Shown: positions 3,079-7,978 of the stretch, piece after piece
Layout: each line of letters opens with the position of its first letter
Numbering within the stretch: position 1 is the first letter of the stretch
DNA from: Actinomycetota bacterium
GTDB taxonomy: Bacteria; Actinomycetota; Actinomycetes; Streptosporangiales; Streptosporangiaceae
Direction of reading: 5' to 3'
Assembly: GCA_003168295.1 (NCBI GenBank)
Contig: PMST01000578.1
Coordinates: 1 to 7,978 of the forward strand
Length of the DNA stretch: 7,978 nucleotides
Notes under the pieces: generated by a model
What the model saw: the letters and a program-made list of their open reading frames with translations, nothing else
Databases searched by the model: none
Told to the model about the DNA's origin: nothing
Made by a program: the position numbers and the translations under genes

Positions 3079-3810
3079 GTGACAGTCGTCAGGATCGGTA
3101 CCTCCGGGTGGAGCTATGACCACTGGGAACCCGAGCTTTACCCGCCCGGGCTTCCGGCCGCCGGCCGGCTCGCCCGCTACGCGGCCGCCTTCGACACCGC
3201 CGAGCTCAACAGCAGCTTCTACCGCTGGCCCCGGCCCGCCACGTTCGGCTCCTGGCAGCGCCGGCTCCCTGACGGCTTCGGCCTCTCGGTCAAGGCACCG
3301 CGGGGCCTCACCCACGGCCGTCGGCTATACCGGCCCGAGCCCTGGATCCCGCGGATCGAGTCGGGCTGGCACGAGCTCGGTGACAAGCGAGCGGTGCTGC
3401 TGGTCCAGCTCGCGCCCGGACACGAGCGCGACGACGCCCGGCTGGCCTATTTCCTCCGGCTGCTCCCGGCCTGGATCAGGGTCGCGGTGGAATTCCGGCA
3501 CCCCAGCTGGCACTGCGAGGACGTCTTCGCGCTGCTCGCCGCGCACGGCGCCGCCTACTGCGTTATGAGCGGCGCGAACCTGCCGTGCGTCCTGCGGGCC
3601 ACCGCCGACTTCGTCTACCTCCGGCTGCACGGCCCGGATCATGATCACCTCTACGCGGGCTCCTACCAAGACGCCGACCTGATGTGGTGGGCGGACCGGA
3701 TAAGGGAATGGCGCGCGGCCGGACACGACGTGTTCGCCTACTTCAACAACGACGGTGACGCGAATGCCGTACGAAACGCCCGCACCCTCCGCGGCCTGCT
3801 CGACCGGTAA
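3079..3810 (+). CDS. DUF72 (YecE-like) family protein
   Basis: This 243-residue soluble protein has the full set of DUF72 hallmarks in order: GTSGWSY (7-13) at the first beta strand, TAELNSSFYR (40-49, the usual E-N-FY motif, here with AEL for the common VEI), VKAPRGLTH (71-79), AVEFRHPSW (136-144), LRLHGP (181-186) and YFNND followed by NAVRNA (221-234). The family adopts a TIM-barrel fold related to sugar-isomerase/endonuclease-IV-like barrels; its biochemical role is not established, so I assign none. Length is normal for the family (about 240-300). The start is GTG with GGGAG just ahead. The gene ends in TAA at 3808-3810. It diverges from the glycosyltransferase and converges on the SRPBCC gene, whose open frame runs antisense through its 3' two-thirds. 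Nothing links it functionally to either neighbour. There is no sign of damage or a frameshift. Confidence 0.93.
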   Translation: MTVVRIGTSGWSYDHWEPELYPPGLPAAGRLARYAAAFDTAELNSSFYRWPRPATFGSWQRRLPDGFGLSVKAPRGLTHGRRLYRPEPWIPRIESGWHELGDKRAVLLVQLAPGHERDDARLAYFLRLLPAWIRVAVEFRHPSWHCEDVFALLAAHGAAYCVMSGANLPCVLRATADFVYLRLHGPDHDHLYAGSYQDADLMWWADRIREWRAAGHDVFAYFNNDGDANAVRNARTLRGLLDR

Positions 3811-4257
3811 CGACGCATCCACGTAAGCCTTGAGCGCGAGCAGGGTACGAGAACTTTCGACCCGGAACGAACGGACTATCACCGCCTGGATAACCCTCAG
3901 CGGCCAGGGGGTATCGATGGTCACGACGCGCGACACGTGCGTCGACTCCCCGCTGGCCGTCAGCGTGTAGCGCAAGGTTACGTCGATGGTCCCGGCGTGC
4001 AGTTTCATCGTCATCGGCTGGTGGAAGGTGATCGACGTCGGCCGCTCGAACTCGGTGACGGTCCCGTTCCGCACGCCGAGCGGCCCGGGTTCGCGGTAGG
4101 TGGTCCCGAGCGTGACCGGGTCCGAGGAGACCTCGGTCGTGCCGCGGAAGGCCGAGGACTTGGCCAGCCAGCGCTCCTGGCCTTTGAAGTCGATGATCAG
4201 GTCGAAGATCTTCTCGGCCGGACCACCGATGTCAGTCTGGGACGGTATGTCGGGCAT
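3325..4257 (-). CDS. SRPBCC / polyketide-cyclase-like protein with an unterminated, antisense-overlapping C-terminus
   Basis: Residues 1-149 (3811-4257) form a normal small SRPBCC (START/Bet v 1-like) domain: the opening MPDIPSQTDI, a helix with PAEKIFDLIIDF, the RW of QERW, strands around TVTEFERPTSITF, and a final long amphipathic helix ending near LLALKAYVDAS. Such proteins bind hydrophobic ligands in a deep cavity; the ligand here is unknown. The ATG at 4255-4257 has GAGAGGGA upstream (4267-4274). The frame could be extended upstream to 4398, but those residues are basic, low-complexity and not family-like. The odd point is the 3' end: the domain ends at base 3811, and the next codon is TTA, the exact complement of the DUF72 stop TAA. 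The frame then stays open antisense to DUF72 until TAG at 3325-3327, giving 310 aa. The extra 161 residues look like antisense translation (V/E/R/G-rich) rather than an evolved domain. Either the stop has been lost, or a small indel hides it. Confidence 0.68.
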   Translation of the reverse strand: MPDIPSQTDIGGPAEKIFDLIIDFKGQERWLAKSSAFRGTTEVSSDPVTLGTTYREPGPLGVRNGTVTEFERPTSITFHQPMTMKLHAGTIDVTLRYTLTASGESTHVSRVVTIDTPWPLRVIQAVIVRSFRVESSRTLLALKAYVDASLPVEQAAEGAGVSYGIRVTVVVEVGEHVVSGRAPFPYPVRPPHQVGVLVGARVEVIMIRAVQPEVDEVGGGPQDARQVRAAHNAVGGAVRGEQREDVLAVPAGVPEFHRDPDPGREQPEEIGQPGVVALVSGRELDQQHRSLVTELVPARLDPRDPGLGPV

Positions 4258-4363
4258 CGCCTGAATTCCCTCTCCCGCGGACCTAGACGCGGTGTTCCCG
4301 GGTCCGCGTCCATCCTGCATCATGGTGCCATGGCAACGCAGCCGCGCCGATCGGAGTGGCCGC
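4258..4363. promoter_or_regulatory. divergent regulatory region with interlocking inverted repeats
   Basis: This gap separates the divergent SRPBCC and ABC-permease starts. It holds a perfect 8-base inverted repeat, CGCGGACC (4276-4283) with GGTCCGCG (4301-4308), spacer 17. A second, mutually exclusive 7-base pair is nested in it: GACGCGG (4286-4292) with CCGCGTC (4304-4310). A further 5-base dyad, CATGG-TG-CCATG, lies at 4321-4332. The first two could form alternative hairpins in RNA or an operator for a dimeric regulator. In very GC-rich DNA short inverted repeats arise easily, so this is suggestive only. No clear -10/-35 pair was found. Confidence 0.35.
4353..4356 (+). promoter_or_regulatory. 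ribosome-binding site that sets the permease start
   Basis: GGAG lies seven bases before the ATG at 4364. The earlier in-frame ATGs at 4292 and 4322 lack such a site and would add basic residues not typical of the family, so 4364 is preferred. Confidence 0.6.
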
Positions 4364-6106
4364 ATGGCGGTCACACCTACCTTCCCTAGCCGTGACACGC
4401 TGCGGCGATTCCGGTTCCGGCCGGTCGACGTGCTGGTCGGGGTCGGCGTGTTCTTGCTGCTTTACGCCGTCGTGCGGGTGGGCGCGAGCGCCCATGTCCC
4501 GTACCACCCCAGCCACGTAATCCCGTTCGACACCTCGCCGGCCGAGCTGCCCTACTACGCGGCCCGCAGCTTGCTGCGGATGTTCGTCGCGCTGTTCTTC
4601 TCCTACGCGTTCAGCCTCGGCTACGCGCTGTGGGCCGCGCGGAGCCGGCGGGCCCGGCGGATCCTGATCCCGGCCCTCGACATCCTCCAGTCGGTGCCGG
4701 TGCTCGGCTTCCTCGCCATCACCGTGACGTTCTTCATCGCCCTGTTCCCCGGCTCCGAGCTCGGCCTGGAGGCGGCGGCGGTCTTCGCCGTCTTCACCTC
4801 TCAGGCGTGGAACATCACGTTCTCCTTCTACCACTCCCTCGTCACCCAGTCCGGCGAGCTGGACGAGGCGAGCCGGCTCATGGGACTGTCCCGCTGGAAG
4901 CGGTTCTGGAGCATCGACGTTCCCGGCGGTGCGATCGGGCTGGTCTGGAACGGCATGATGAGCTTCGGCGGCAGCTGGTTCTTCCTGACCGCGTCCGAGC
5001 TGATCACGGTGGGCGGCCGCAGCTACACGCTGCCCGGGGTCGGCTCGTACGTCGGCGTGGCCGTGCGGCAGGGGGAACTCGGGCACGTCGCCTGGGGCAT
5101 TCTCACCATGATCATCATGATCCTGGCGGTCAACTTCGTGTTCTGGCGGCCGCTGGTGGCCTACGTGGAACGGTTCCGGATCGAGCAGACGGAGTCGAGC
5201 GCCAAGGCCCGCTCGATCGTCCTGAACGTGCTGCGGCGCTCCAGCTGGCCGGCGCTGGTCGGGCGGGGGCGGCGGGCCCTGGCCCGGCCCGTCAACCAGC
5301 TGATGGGCGCGGCCACCGGCATCGACGACCGCAGCCTGGTCAGTCACGCCGCGCGACGGCGGGCCGGCGACACGGCCTTCGCGGTCGTGGTCGTGCTGGT
5401 GCTCGGCTGGGGCCTGTACAGCATGCTGGCCTACGTGGCCGGCGGCCATCAGGGCCTGGGCATCTTCGGGCACGCGTTCGCACTTGGCTTCTTCACGTTC
5501 CTGCGGGTCGCCGTGGTGGTGGCGGTGGCGTCGGTGATCTGGGTGCCGGTCGGCGTCTGGATCGGCTTCAACCCTCGGGTCGCTCAGTTCATGCAGCCGG
5601 TCGTCCAGGTGTTTGCGAGTTTTCCGGCGAATTTCATCTTCCCGTTCGTCATCGTTTTCTTCCTGGACATCGGGCTCAGCCTCAATTACGGCAGCGTCCT
5701 GCTGATGGCGCTGGGTACCCAGTGGTACATCCTGTTCAACGTGATCGCGGGCGCCAGCGCCGTGCCTTCCGATCTGAAGGAAGCCATGGACAATCTCGAC
5801 GTGCACGGCTGGGAACGCTGGCGGCGGATGATCATCCCCGCCGTGTTCCCCGCCTACGTCACCGGGGCGATCACCGCGGCCGGCGGCGCGTGGAACGCCA
5901 CCATCGTGGCCGAGATCGTCACCTACAAGGGGCGGGTCCTGGCGGCCAGCGGACTGGGCGCCTTCATCACCGAGGCGACCACGAACAATGACTTCCACCA
6001 GATCATCGCGGGCATCCTGGTCATGTCCGTCTACGTCAGCGGGCTGAACGCGCTGCTGTGGCGGCGTCTGTACGCCATCGCCGAGTCGAAATACGCGCTC
6101 GCATGA
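4364..6106 (+). CDS. NitT/TauT-type ABC transporter permease, two fused permease units
   Basis: This 580-residue integral membrane protein provides both halves of the membrane channel of an ABC importer in one chain. Each half is a binding-protein-dependent permease unit (BPD_transp_1). The first has helices from about 22 to 265, with an EAA coupling loop at 165-189 (GELDEASRLMGL then WSIDVPGG). A linker rich in basic residues (270-335) leads to the second, with helices from about 336 to 572 and an EAA loop at 470-497 (DLKEAMDNLDV then MIIPAVFP). The two EAA loops are where the ATPase docks. Features such as SWFFLTASELI in the first half and the WNATIVAEIVTYKG stretch in the second match nitrate/sulfonate/taurine-class permeases. 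Its stop overlaps the ATPase start (ATGA, 6103-6106), so the two are translationally coupled. Fused double permeases with an AAA-associated-domain ATPase are a known subgroup of this class. The substrate is not evident, and no binding protein is nearby. Confidence 0.9.
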   Translation: MAVTPTFPSRDTLRRFRFRPVDVLVGVGVFLLLYAVVRVGASAHVPYHPSHVIPFDTSPAELPYYAARSLLRMFVALFFSYAFSLGYALWAARSRRARRILIPALDILQSVPVLGFLAITVTFFIALFPGSELGLEAAAVFAVFTSQAWNITFSFYHSLVTQSGELDEASRLMGLSRWKRFWSIDVPGGAIGLVWNGMMSFGGSWFFLTASELITVGGRSYTLPGVGSYVGVAVRQGELGHVAWGILTMIIMILAVNFVFWRPLVAYVERFRIEQTESSAKARSIVLNVLRRSSWPALVGRGRRALARPVNQLMGAATGIDDRSLVSHAARRRAGDTAFAVVVVLVLGWGLYSMLAYVAGGHQGLGIFGHAFALGFFTFLRVAVVVAVASVIWVPVGVWIGFNPRVAQFMQPVVQVFASFPANFIFPFVIVFFLDIGLSLNYGSVLLMALGTQWYILFNVIAGASAVPSDLKEAMDNLDVHGWERWRRMIIPAVFPAYVTGAITAAGGAWNATIVAEIVTYKGRVLAASGLGAFITEATTNNDFHQIIAGILVMSVYVSGLNALLWRRLYAIAESKYALA

Positions 6107-7978
6107 GCGAGCCGGCCGGGCCCGGCCCGCTGATCAGCGTCCGGGCGCTGAGCAAGTCATTCTCTGGTCCGGACGGGCATCCGGTGCCGGTGCTCGAAGG
6201 CATCAACCTCGATGTCGCCGAGGGCGAGTTCGTCGCGCTGCTCGGCCGCAGCGGCAGCGGCAAGTCCACCCTGCTGCGGTGCATCGCCGGCCTGATGGCG
6301 CCGACCTCCGGGGAGGTCCTGTTCCGCGGCCAGCGGCTGGTCGGCACCAACCGGGACACCACCATGGTGTTCCAGACCTTCGCGCTGCTGCCGTGGCTCA
6401 CCGTGCAGCAGAACGTCGAGATCGGCCTGGAGGCGCGGAAGGTACCGCCGGGACCGCGCTCCGAGCGGGCGCTGCGCGCCATCGACCTGGTCGGCCTCGA
6501 CGGCTACGAGTCCGCCTATCCCAAGGAGCTTTCCGGCGGCATGCGCCAGCGCGTCGGCTTCGCCCGCGCCCTGGTCGTGGAGCCGGCCGCGCTGCTGATG
6601 GACGAGCCGTTCAGCGCGCTGGACGTGCTCACCTCGGAGAACCTGCGCGGCGAGCTGCTTGAGCTCTGGGAGGGGCAGCGGTTCCCGACCAAGACCATGG
6701 TCATGGTCACGCACAACATCGAGGAGGCGGTGCTGCTGGCCGACCGGATCCTCGTCCTGGGCACGAACCCGGGCCGGATCCGGGCCGACATGCCCAACCC
6801 GCTGCCTCGGCCGCGGCGTAGGCGAACCCCGGACTTCGACGCGCTCGTCGACGAGATCTACCGCCTGATGACCCACCGCGACAGCGTGCCCGCGGAGCCC
6901 GCCGCCCAGGCCGGCGGCACGCGGGCCGGCACGGTCGGCGACTCCCCGCTGCCGCTAGCCACCGTGGACGGGCTGTCCGGCCTCGCCGAAATCCTGCTGG
7001 GCCGTCACGACGGCGCGGCCGATCTGCCTGACCTGGCCGACAACCTGGGCCTTGAGGTCGATGAGCTGCTGCCTCTGGTGGACGCGCTGGTCATGCTCGG
7101 GTTCGCCCAGCTCAGCGGCGAACGGCTGGCCCTGTCCCGCGAGGGCCGGATCTTCGCCGGCGCGAGCATCCAGGACAGCAAGGAGATTTTCGCCCGGGCG
7201 TCGCTGGACCGGGCCCCGCTGGTCCGTACCATCTACCGGGCCCTGGGCAACAGTCTCGACGGCAACCTGCCGTCCGGCTTCTTCACCGACATCCTGCGGA
7301 CCAGGTTCGGCGAGGACGCGGCCACCGCGCAGCTCGACGTGGCCGTGAACTGGGGCCGGTACGCCGAGCTCTACGCCTACGACGCGACCCGCGGCCAGAT
7401 CATCCGCGAGGACAACGGCATCGGCGCCATGCTGGCGGCCCCGGCCGAGCCGGTCCGGCGGGGCACGCTGCACCTGTACCTCGGCGCCGCGCCAGGATCC
7501 GGAAAGACCTTCAGCATGCTCAGGGAGGGCCGCGCGCTGCGCGACCGGGGCGAGGACGTCGTGGTCGGACTGGCCCGAACCCGGGGCCGGCCGCGCACGG
7601 CCGAAGCCCTCGCCGGCCTCGAGGTCATCCCGCCCCGCCCGCCCGGCACCGGCCCTGACGCCCGCGACCCGGACGCCCGCGAGGAGATGGACCTCGACGC
7701 GGTCCTCGCGCGCAAGCCGGCCGTGGTGCTGGTGGACGATTACGGTCCGAACATCGAGGCGATCAGGTCCCTGCGGGACGCCGGGATCGACGTCATCAGC
7801 ACCGTCGACGTGGCCGACCTGGAGCGCGCGGCCGAGACCGTCCAGCAGATCACCGGACAGCCCGCCGCGGCCACCGTGTCCGATGCCGCCCTCGCCGAGG
7901 CCGATGAGATCCGGTTCCTGGACAACTCGCCCGAGGCGCTGCGTAAGCGGCTCGGGCACGGGAACATCTACCCGGCCG
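6103..7978 (+). CDS. ABC transporter ATPase fused to an AAA-associated domain and a KdpD-type sensor domain (3' end outside window)
   Basis: One open frame of at least 625 codons, checked codon by codon without a stop, holds three modules. Residues 10-245 are a complete NitT/TauT-class ABC ATPase: Walker A GRSGSGKST (48-56), Q-loop Gln91 (VFQTFALLPW), signature LSGGM (143-147), Walker B LLMDEP (164-169), D-loop SALD (171-174) and H-loop His204. A linker rich in Ala, Gly and Pro (about 262-286) leads to residues 288-430, an AAA-associated C-terminal domain as found on related transporter ATPases (GLAEILLG, LSREGRIFA, then VNWGRYAELYAYD). Residues 453-625 match the N-terminal domain of KdpD, the potassium/osmotic sensor kinase: LGAAPGSGKT (460-469), VVVGLARTRGR, EEMDLDAVLARKPAVVLVDD (527-546), DAGIDV and ADEIRFLD. 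The ATPase powers uptake through the upstream permease, with which it overlaps by ATGA. The KdpD piece may gate transport or sense ions. What follows (USP, kinase or stop) is not visible. Confidence 0.92.
   Translation, partial: MSEPAGPGPLISVRALSKSFSGPDGHPVPVLEGINLDVAEGEFVALLGRSGSGKSTLLRCIAGLMAPTSGEVLFRGQRLVGTNRDTTMVFQTFALLPWLTVQQNVEIGLEARKVPPGPRSERALRAIDLVGLDGYESAYPKELSGGMRQRVGFARALVVEPAALLMDEPFSALDVLTSENLRGELLELWEGQRFPTKTMVMVTHNIEEAVLLADRILVLGTNPGRIRADMPNPLPRPRRRRTPDFDALVDEIYRLMTHRDSVPAEPAAQAGGTRAGTVGDSPLPLATVDGLSGLAEILLGRHDGAADLPDLADNLGLEVDELLPLVDALVMLGFAQLSGERLALSREGRIFAGASIQDSKEIFARASLDRAPLVRTIYRALGNSLDGNLPSGFFTDILRTRFGEDAATAQLDVAVNWGRYAELYAYDATRGQIIREDNGIGAMLAAPAEPVRRGTLHLYLGAAPGSGKTFSMLREGRALRDRGEDVVVGLARTRGRPRTAEALAGLEVIPPRPPGTGPDARDPDAREEMDLDAVLARKPAVVLVDDYGPNIEAIRSLRDAGIDVISTVDVADLERAAETVQQITGQPAAATVSDAALAEADEIRFLDNSPEALRKRLGHGNIYPA
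7459..7978 (+). other. KdpD-type sensor domain within the ATPase fusion
   Basis: Residues 453-625 of the fusion protein. Relative to canonical KdpD, the Walker A motif, the GLEV.P segment, the EEMDLDA.LAR.PA.VLVD segment and the ITGQ...ADEI stretch are kept. The usual run after the Walker B acid (VDELAHTN.PG.RH.KRWQDVEELL) is replaced by a much shorter DDYGPNIEAIRSL, about ten residues less. The canonical TTLNVQHLES strand-loop reads STVDVADLER. In KdpD this domain is cytoplasmic, binds ATP and tunes kinase/phosphatase balance. Here its acid and P-loop remain, but the conserved His/Asn/Pro/Trp cluster does not, so the site may bind nucleotide without the usual output. The domain boundary at the left is approximate. 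Confidence 0.82.

Follow-up and report, generated by a model that had tools for sequence, protein, structure and literature searches.

The fused reading frame

The window analysed here is a 7,978-nucleotide stretch of DNA from a bacterium of the Streptosporangiaceae (Actinomycetota; contig PMST01000578.1, assembly GCA_003168295.1), with a G+C content of about 61-75% across its length. On its forward strand, a gene for a duplicated permease is followed by an open reading frame (ORF) which carries an ATP-binding cassette (ABC) ATPase, an AAA_assoc_C domain and the N-terminal domain of the potassium sensor KdpD (called KdpD1 below; Table 1). The three parts lie in one frame, and the fusion is real. 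Pfam places ABC_tran on residues 31-170, AAA_assoc_C on residues 309-427 and KdpD on residues 452-624; the last match covers positions 1-178 of the 210 in the profile and is cut by the window end. Scored by itself, the KdpD piece reaches 2e-47 in Pfam. NCBIfam matches it to KdpD_non_kinase (5.6e-37) and KdpD (8.7e-35), far under the cut-offs of these models, which describe whole proteins.

The original prediction, made from the DNA letters alone, had described one frame of this composition with a second P-loop. Both P-loops are present, and the KdpD identity of the tail, which it had held open to refutation, is borne out by Pfam and by the match to the solved KdpD N-domain. The HTN...KRW loop which lies behind the KdpD Walker B motif is gone.

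Table 1. Features of the window; E. coli numbering where stated
Feature	Position	Strand	Basis and remarks
Duplicated permease, NitT/TauT type	4364..6106	+	Two BPD_transp_1 stretches, Pfam 8.8e-32; 580 amino acids and stop
ATGA overlap of permease stop and ATPase start	6103..6106	+	Sequence
Fused ORF: ABC ATPase, AAA_assoc_C, KdpD1	6103..7978	+	625 codons seen, no stop before window end
ABC_tran domain	6193..6612	+	Pfam 6.5e-32
ABC Walker A, GRSGSGKST	6244-6270	+	Sequence; intact
LSGG signature	6529-6543	+	Sequence; intact
ABC Walker B	6592-6609	+	Sequence; intact
H-loop	6703-6717	+	Sequence
AAA_assoc_C domain	7027..7383	+	Pfam PF09821, 8.5e-33
KdpD N-terminal domain (KdpD1), ended by window edge	7456..7974	+	Pfam PF02702, 7.2e-46; 2r8r, 1e-22
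KdpD Walker A, GAAPGSGKT (G-X5-GKT form)	7483..7509	+	Sequence; Lys present
KdpD Walker B, Asp-Asp	7735..7740	+	Sequence; second position is Glu110 of E. coli KdpD (role of Glu110: PMC11018627)

Distribution of the fusion

A protein search with residues 290-625 scored 7998 proteins, 5940 of them at E <= 0.001; it is blind to proteins longer than 1.75 times the query length (about 1094 amino acids), and the longest ones are therefore left out. Among the best 120 matches, examined through precomputed Pfam lists, 59 hold ABC (PF00005), PF09821 and PF02702 together. Fused proteins with a named organism all come from metagenome-assembled genomes (MAGs) of Streptosporangiaceae, Streptosporangiales or Actinobacteria; the carriers are uncultured soil bacteria.

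Genomes were scanned at one per species (84,980 species) with an eight-sequence alignment (A1), both patterns of which lie within AAA_assoc_C. The scan gave 185 relatives, of which the best 80 were kept (L001-L080); distant relatives are missed, so that all counts are lower bounds. Within these 80, the fusion adjoins the permease gene in at least nine actinobacterial MAGs (L001-L009; seven titled Streptosporangiaceae, one Actinobacteria and one Actinomycetes) and in one Dormibacterota MAG (L011). In a further Dormibacterota MAG (L010), only a stub of AAA_assoc_C accompanies the KdpD part. The other 69 loci (L012-L080) have ABC and AAA_assoc_C unfused; the idea of a split system, with an unfused KdpD gene beside this ABC family, was dropped after no KdpD match appeared in their available flanks.

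In the family of genome G001, 9 of 200 genomes have the fusion, the same nine as above, in a search that scored at most nine candidates in any row shown. Three members of this family (G045, G047 and G144) match AAA_assoc_C and not KdpD, with one in-frame stop within each match. The class of genome G011 has 29 matching genomes out of 101: one with the intact fusion (G011), one with the stub (G010) and 27 with the KdpD part. In four of these 27 (G210, G251, G269 and G281) the match starts up to about 80 residues earlier; they were considered as further stubs and rejected, having no AAA_assoc_C or ABC part.

The join could in principle be an artefact, two genes merged by a chimeric contig or a frame error. 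The window ends inside KdpD, the carriers of named origin are all MAGs, and seven of the nine actinobacterial MAGs belong to the JOPF series. Against this, the junction recurs in at least four MAG series (JOPF, clean1706, FK1 and palsa) and in two phyla, the ABC and KdpD halves each form a single clade, and there is purifying selection on either side of the junction (see below). AAA_assoc_C and KdpD start 170 or 171 residues apart in all nine actinobacterial loci. The independent copies rule the artefact out, and its probability is negligible. A frame error near position 7440 and an architecture confined to one assembly, both named in advance as ways in which the prediction might fail, are excluded by the nine actinobacterial loci and one Dormibacterota locus with the same junction and by at least 59 proteins.

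Origin and selection

In a tree of 83 KdpD1 domains (midpoint root; three fused rows less than half filled), all 40 fused rows fall into a single clade (95/96). A larger group of 60 rows (98/98) unites this clade with 20 of the 25 standalone tandem KdpDs, which come from genomes of the Dormibacterota class and from database proteins, in part labelled Chloroflexi or Dormibacteraeota. The remaining five tandem rows are placed next to the single KdpDs from the host genomes, themselves a separate clade (100/99). When 41 segments of ABC plus AAA_assoc_C are compared, the tree likewise gathers the 24 fused rows in one clade (100/99); this group includes P0091, P0095, P0111 and P0117, which stop after AAA_assoc_C and are assigned as frameshifted or cut. 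These proteins, together with P0092, were considered as natural unfused members of the fused clade and set aside as probably frameshifted or cut records: P0091, P0092 and P0095 continue into residues that look out of frame, and P0111 and P0117 end shortly after AAA_assoc_C with short, odd tails. The simplest reading of the trees is a single fusion event, followed by spread in two phyla.

Ratios of nonsynonymous to synonymous change (dN/dS; Nei-Gojobori method) were obtained for three full-length pairs of near relatives (Table 2). All tail domains lie at 0.11-0.40 in the three pairs, and the tail is under purifying selection. In two of the pairs, the second KdpD domain is about as constrained as the ATPase.

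Table 2. dN/dS in three pairs of near relatives
Segment	L002/L005	L004/L006	L001/L003
Whole gene	0.196	0.158	0.206
ABC	0.11	0.08	0.15
AAA_assoc_C	0.30	0.09	0.08
KdpD1	0.34	0.17	0.22
USP1	0.24	0.35	0.40
KdpD2	0.11	0.17	0.11
USP2	0.19	0.25	0.37

The tail in full-length relatives

In complete relatives, the protein continues past the first KdpD domain. The seven known are 1145-1182 amino acids long; KdpD1 is followed by a USP domain (USP1), a second KdpD domain (KdpD2), a second USP domain (USP2) and a stop, which lies 143-158 amino acids past KdpD2. Each of the seven loci whose contig extends to the gene end has the full-length frame. Pfam scans of nine relatives, several of them incomplete, found no membrane part and no GAF, DHp or CA histidine-kinase domains. 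The original prediction had thought that a USP domain might follow, and in the relatives one does, with another KdpD-USP pair after it; the four helices and histidine kinase which usually follow in KdpD are absent from the relatives scanned.

In two predicted structures of relatives, USP1 and USP2 pack as a pair, as they do in tandem USP proteins. The predicted pair also resembles the cytoplasmic domain of cation-chloride cotransporters, at a root-mean-square deviation (rmsd) of 4.2-5.4.

The KdpD kinase site

The N-domain of E. coli KdpD is a serine kinase which phosphorylates Ser162 of KdpB, and its Walker A motif, D109 and E110 are essential; E110A abolishes activity (PMC11018627). A KdpD-domain protein of D. 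geothermalis is also a serine kinase, stimulated by cyclic di-AMP (c-di-AMP) (PMC11018627). It might be supposed that the fused KdpD is likewise active, with the importer's own permease or ATPase, or KdpB, as its substrate, and that serine phosphorylation thereby switches the importer as it does the Kdp pump.

The residues concerned were compared in an alignment of KdpD1 from 101 fused rows (some cut at the 5' end, with the ABC part out of view), 32 standalone tandem proteins and 18 single domains. Fourteen fused rows are cut or out of frame at Walker B, which leaves 87 readable; the fused rows include near-copies and are to that extent dependent. At the E110 position, the readable fused copies have Asp in 81, Tyr in 3, Asn in 2 and Glu in one (P0019), whereas all 50 unfused proteins (32/32 tandem, 18/18 single) have Glu. 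In 81 of the 87 there is a gap where the KRW loop has its Arg, a residue present in 50/50 unfused; the six fused copies with the Arg are P0073, P0076, P0077, P0078 and, from Dormibacterota, the rows of L010 and L011. The Walker A Lys is more often kept: 66 of the readable copies have it (79 of all 101 fused rows), 17 have Thr and 4 have Ala, compared with Lys in 50/50 unfused. KdpD2 has lost this Lys in all 48 proteins of a second alignment (A2), fused and unfused; the loss probably predates the fusion, since both kinds share it.

The Walker A Lys of the window and of most other readable copies, and the kinase activity of the two characterised homologues, speak for an active enzyme. The replacement of an essential Glu in 86 of 87 copies, the exchange of the Walker A Lys in 21, the loss of the loop and the Lys-less KdpD2 speak against it, and the active-kinase explanation is disfavoured; we consider it very unlikely. 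Judged by these residues, fused KdpD1 would be a pseudokinase.

USP motifs and possible signals

Two motifs taken from PMC8214093 were sought in the USP domains: a c-di-AMP motif, (A/G/C)XSXSX2N(Y/F), derived from Firmicutes, and the USP ATP motif G-X2-G-X9-G-(S/T). The first occurs in 0/28 fused USP1 and 0/24 covered fused USP2 domains; it has no positive control here, as it also occurs in 0/38 unfused KdpD proteins of these lineages (20 tandem, 14 host and 4 short). The second is absent from the fused USPs scanned.

These results bear on a specific form of the regulatory reading favoured below, in which c-di-AMP, formed when K+ is high, docks on the USP pair and import is thereby slowed or stopped. 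Such a gate would parallel the control of short KdpDs by c-di-AMP, and c-di-AMP is a possible ligand of the tail because a short KdpD-USP protein responds to it (PMC11018627). The missing motif counts against the gate, as far as a motif without a positive control can. DAC domains are found in 9 of the 11 genomes of L001-L011, compared with 11 of 14 control genomes; with the domain so frequent among bacteria, the co-occurrence weighs little. On balance this gate is unlikely. ATP is a possible ligand of KdpD1 where the Lys is kept.

Proposed regulation of the importer

The fused ATPase tail probably gates the importer allosterically, as a former regulator of the K+ pump that is now non-catalytic. 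The gene product would be an importer ATPase subunit with a C-terminal regulatory tail, drawn from a tandem KdpD-USP protein of the type that occurs on its own in Dormibacterota. Two copies of the fused ATPase would dock on the duplicated permease, assuming a dimeric assembly. The tail, held through AAA_assoc_C, would then alter the rate of ATP hydrolysis or transport once its KdpD and USP domains bind a ligand or partner. It would act by shape, as a pseudokinase with a USP pair, and no longer as the serine kinase used on the K+ pump; the altered residues suggest that kinase activity has been lost. The signal may be the K+ or osmotic state, or a nucleotide messenger. Allosteric gating is the likeliest reading because the spacing of 170-171 residues is fixed, the USPs pair in the models, and the kinase residues are changed yet the sequence is under selection.

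Several points weigh against this reading. The pairing of the USPs is a predicted feature from two related sequences, and the second model is weak overall (pTM 0.32, with pLDDT below 50 over residues 159-280). No ligand is in sight, because the c-di-AMP and USP ATP motifs are both missing from the fused USPs. Exchange of Glu for Asp is conservative, could leave some activity and is no proof of a pseudokinase, and the Walker A Lys is still there in 66 of 87 copies. Within the tail, dN/dS peaks at USP1 in two of three pairs and at KdpD1 in the third, which fits a loosely constrained tail, and many database copies of the fusion are cut or frameshifted.

The cut or frameshifted copies, the altered kinase residues and the faster evolution of the USPs than of the ABC part would also suit a passive tail, one whose sole role is to stabilise or localise the transporter and which has no sensing function. 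Full-length frames in 7/7 loci that reach the gene end, purifying selection across all tail domains and the conserved length to KdpD1 argue the other way, and a passive tail appears improbable.

The original prediction had proposed post-translational control of uptake by the signal that KdpD reads, namely K+, ATP, ionic strength or, should a USP domain follow, c-di-AMP. A regulatory part of KdpD does sit on the motor of a transporter. A simple KdpD switch does not fit, given the exchanged Glu, the lost KRW loop and the absence of the membrane part in relatives; control by K+, ATP or c-di-AMP stays hypothetical, with the c-di-AMP motif missing as described.

Kdp genes and standalone tandem KdpDs

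Each of the 11 genomes behind L001-L011 also encodes KdpA and another KdpD elsewhere, so the fusion comes on top of the Kdp components and does not replace them.

Standalone proteins of about 740 amino acids with the order KdpD-USP-KdpD-USP, found in Chloroflexota and Dormibacterota MAGs, have the same domains in the same order as the tail, as do short KdpD-USP proteins in part. The short and tandem type is known from Deinococcus (PMC11018627). P0096-P0121, apart from P0111 and P0117, are tandem proteins of this kind; they are often labelled KdpD sensor kinases, and their listed domains are KdpD and USP. The second KdpD of 20 aligned examples has no Walker A Lys. Tandem proteins are thus like the fused ones in this Lys-less domain, and 20 of 25 branch with fused KdpD1; they differ in keeping Glu110 and the HTN...KRW loop (Glu and Arg in 32/32). 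They lie near Kdp pump genes in L010 and G011, whereas fused copies sit on an ABC ATPase.

At L010 (8000-17250), a tandem KdpD ORF with the last ~60 residues of AAA_assoc_C adjoins kdpA and a second tandem KdpD; an ABC or permease match is absent from the locus. Either the fusion has split here or the contig is chimeric. The same region (12270-14987) has a single ORF of 906 amino acids with P-type ATPase (E1-E2) and KdpC domains, in which KdpB and KdpC look fused; a 2-base N run lies inside it at 14030.

Permease and neighbouring genes

The reading frame of the permease is open from GTG 4292. Its start is probably ATG 4364, because relatives open with identical VTPTFPSR residues and have the same length of 580 amino acids. 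The ATGA overlap with the ATPase gene is kept in 9/9 loci (L001-L009) and may couple translation of the two genes. No solute-binding protein was found among the few flanking genes scanned, most flanking genes being outside that scan.

A Na_H_Exchanger gene lies upstream of the permease on the opposite strand in L001 and L007, and by eye similar protein starts are seen in L004 and L008; this neighbour is no more than a hint of ion homeostasis. Gene neighbours of the unfused copies were rejected as a guide to the substrate: the conserved families (top 25 clusters) look like ordinary chromosomal synteny, mostly of Acidobacteria. In one Armatimonadetes MAG (L048:10054-11343), an Nramp metal transporter gene is found about 1.3 kb downstream of an unfused ABC pair.

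The rest of the window encodes a 927-amino-acid glycosyltransferase family 2 protein (198-2981, - strand), the long C-terminal part of which has no Pfam name, and a DUF72 gene (3079-3810, + strand) opposed by an ORF with a Polyketide_cyc2 domain (3325-4398, - strand). Neither of the latter two was noticed among the genes of L001-L009, no search-based comparison having been made.

Comparison with known systems

The unfused ABC ATPases of Nocardia, Gordonia, Acidobacteriota and others share the ATPase and AAA_assoc_C in 69/69 loci (L012-L080), and 68 have the duplicated permease beside them; unlike the fused protein, they stop after AAA_assoc_C. By sequence, the solved ATPases closest to a relative of the window protein (P0006, used as the query) are the nitrate/bicarbonate ATPases CmpC/CmpD. 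The solved chains of this group (665-690 amino acids), whose nitrate members we take to be those named NrtC/NrtD, likewise have a large C-terminal domain. That extra domain is regulatory and resembles a solute-binding protein, not KdpD-USP. ATPases with C-terminal regulatory domains are well known, among them MetN, OpuA and NrtC.

USP pairs on transporters are also known already, as in the cytoplasmic USP-like pair of the cation-chloride cotransporters KCC and NKCC, which the predicted models match in structure. These are secondary transporters and are not known to have KdpD domains. Rv2623, a tandem USP protein, acts on the ABC transporter Rv1747; here the two are separate proteins, the transporter is an exporter, and contact is made through a phosphothreonine and an FHA domain.

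The fusion is apparently undescribed, as had been suspected. Among the titles and abstract openings of the top-listed papers, none reports KdpD serving as a regulatory domain on an ABC motor, with most subscription papers, preprints and all supplements beyond reach. The accessible part of PMC11018627, which showed in 2024 that the KdpD N-domain acts directly on the pump, has no mention of ABC transporter, ABC-type, fused or duplicat- terms.

Significance

KdpD was long regarded as a transcriptional sensor. A broader view than the gating proposed above is held more tentatively, at somewhat less than even chances: that machinery for K+ and osmotic control has moved from the Kdp pump to an ABC importer that has no binding protein among the flanking genes scanned, where a retired KdpD serine kinase and paired USPs, built into the motor, gate import allosterically according to ionic or second-messenger state. 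If this is true, it would be, to our knowledge, the first KdpD to work with neither a histidine nor a serine kinase and to act on something besides Kdp.

The fusion suggests that an unrelated transporter captured a KdpD module and that selection has preserved it without the kinase chemistry, in two phyla that are known here from MAGs alone. It offers a single-chain system for asking what KdpD and USP domains do beyond kinase activity. It would also point towards the substrate of a widespread ABC family, the one that combines AAA_assoc_C with a duplicated permease: an osmolyte or a counter-ion would become a candidate if import is gated by ionic or osmotic state.

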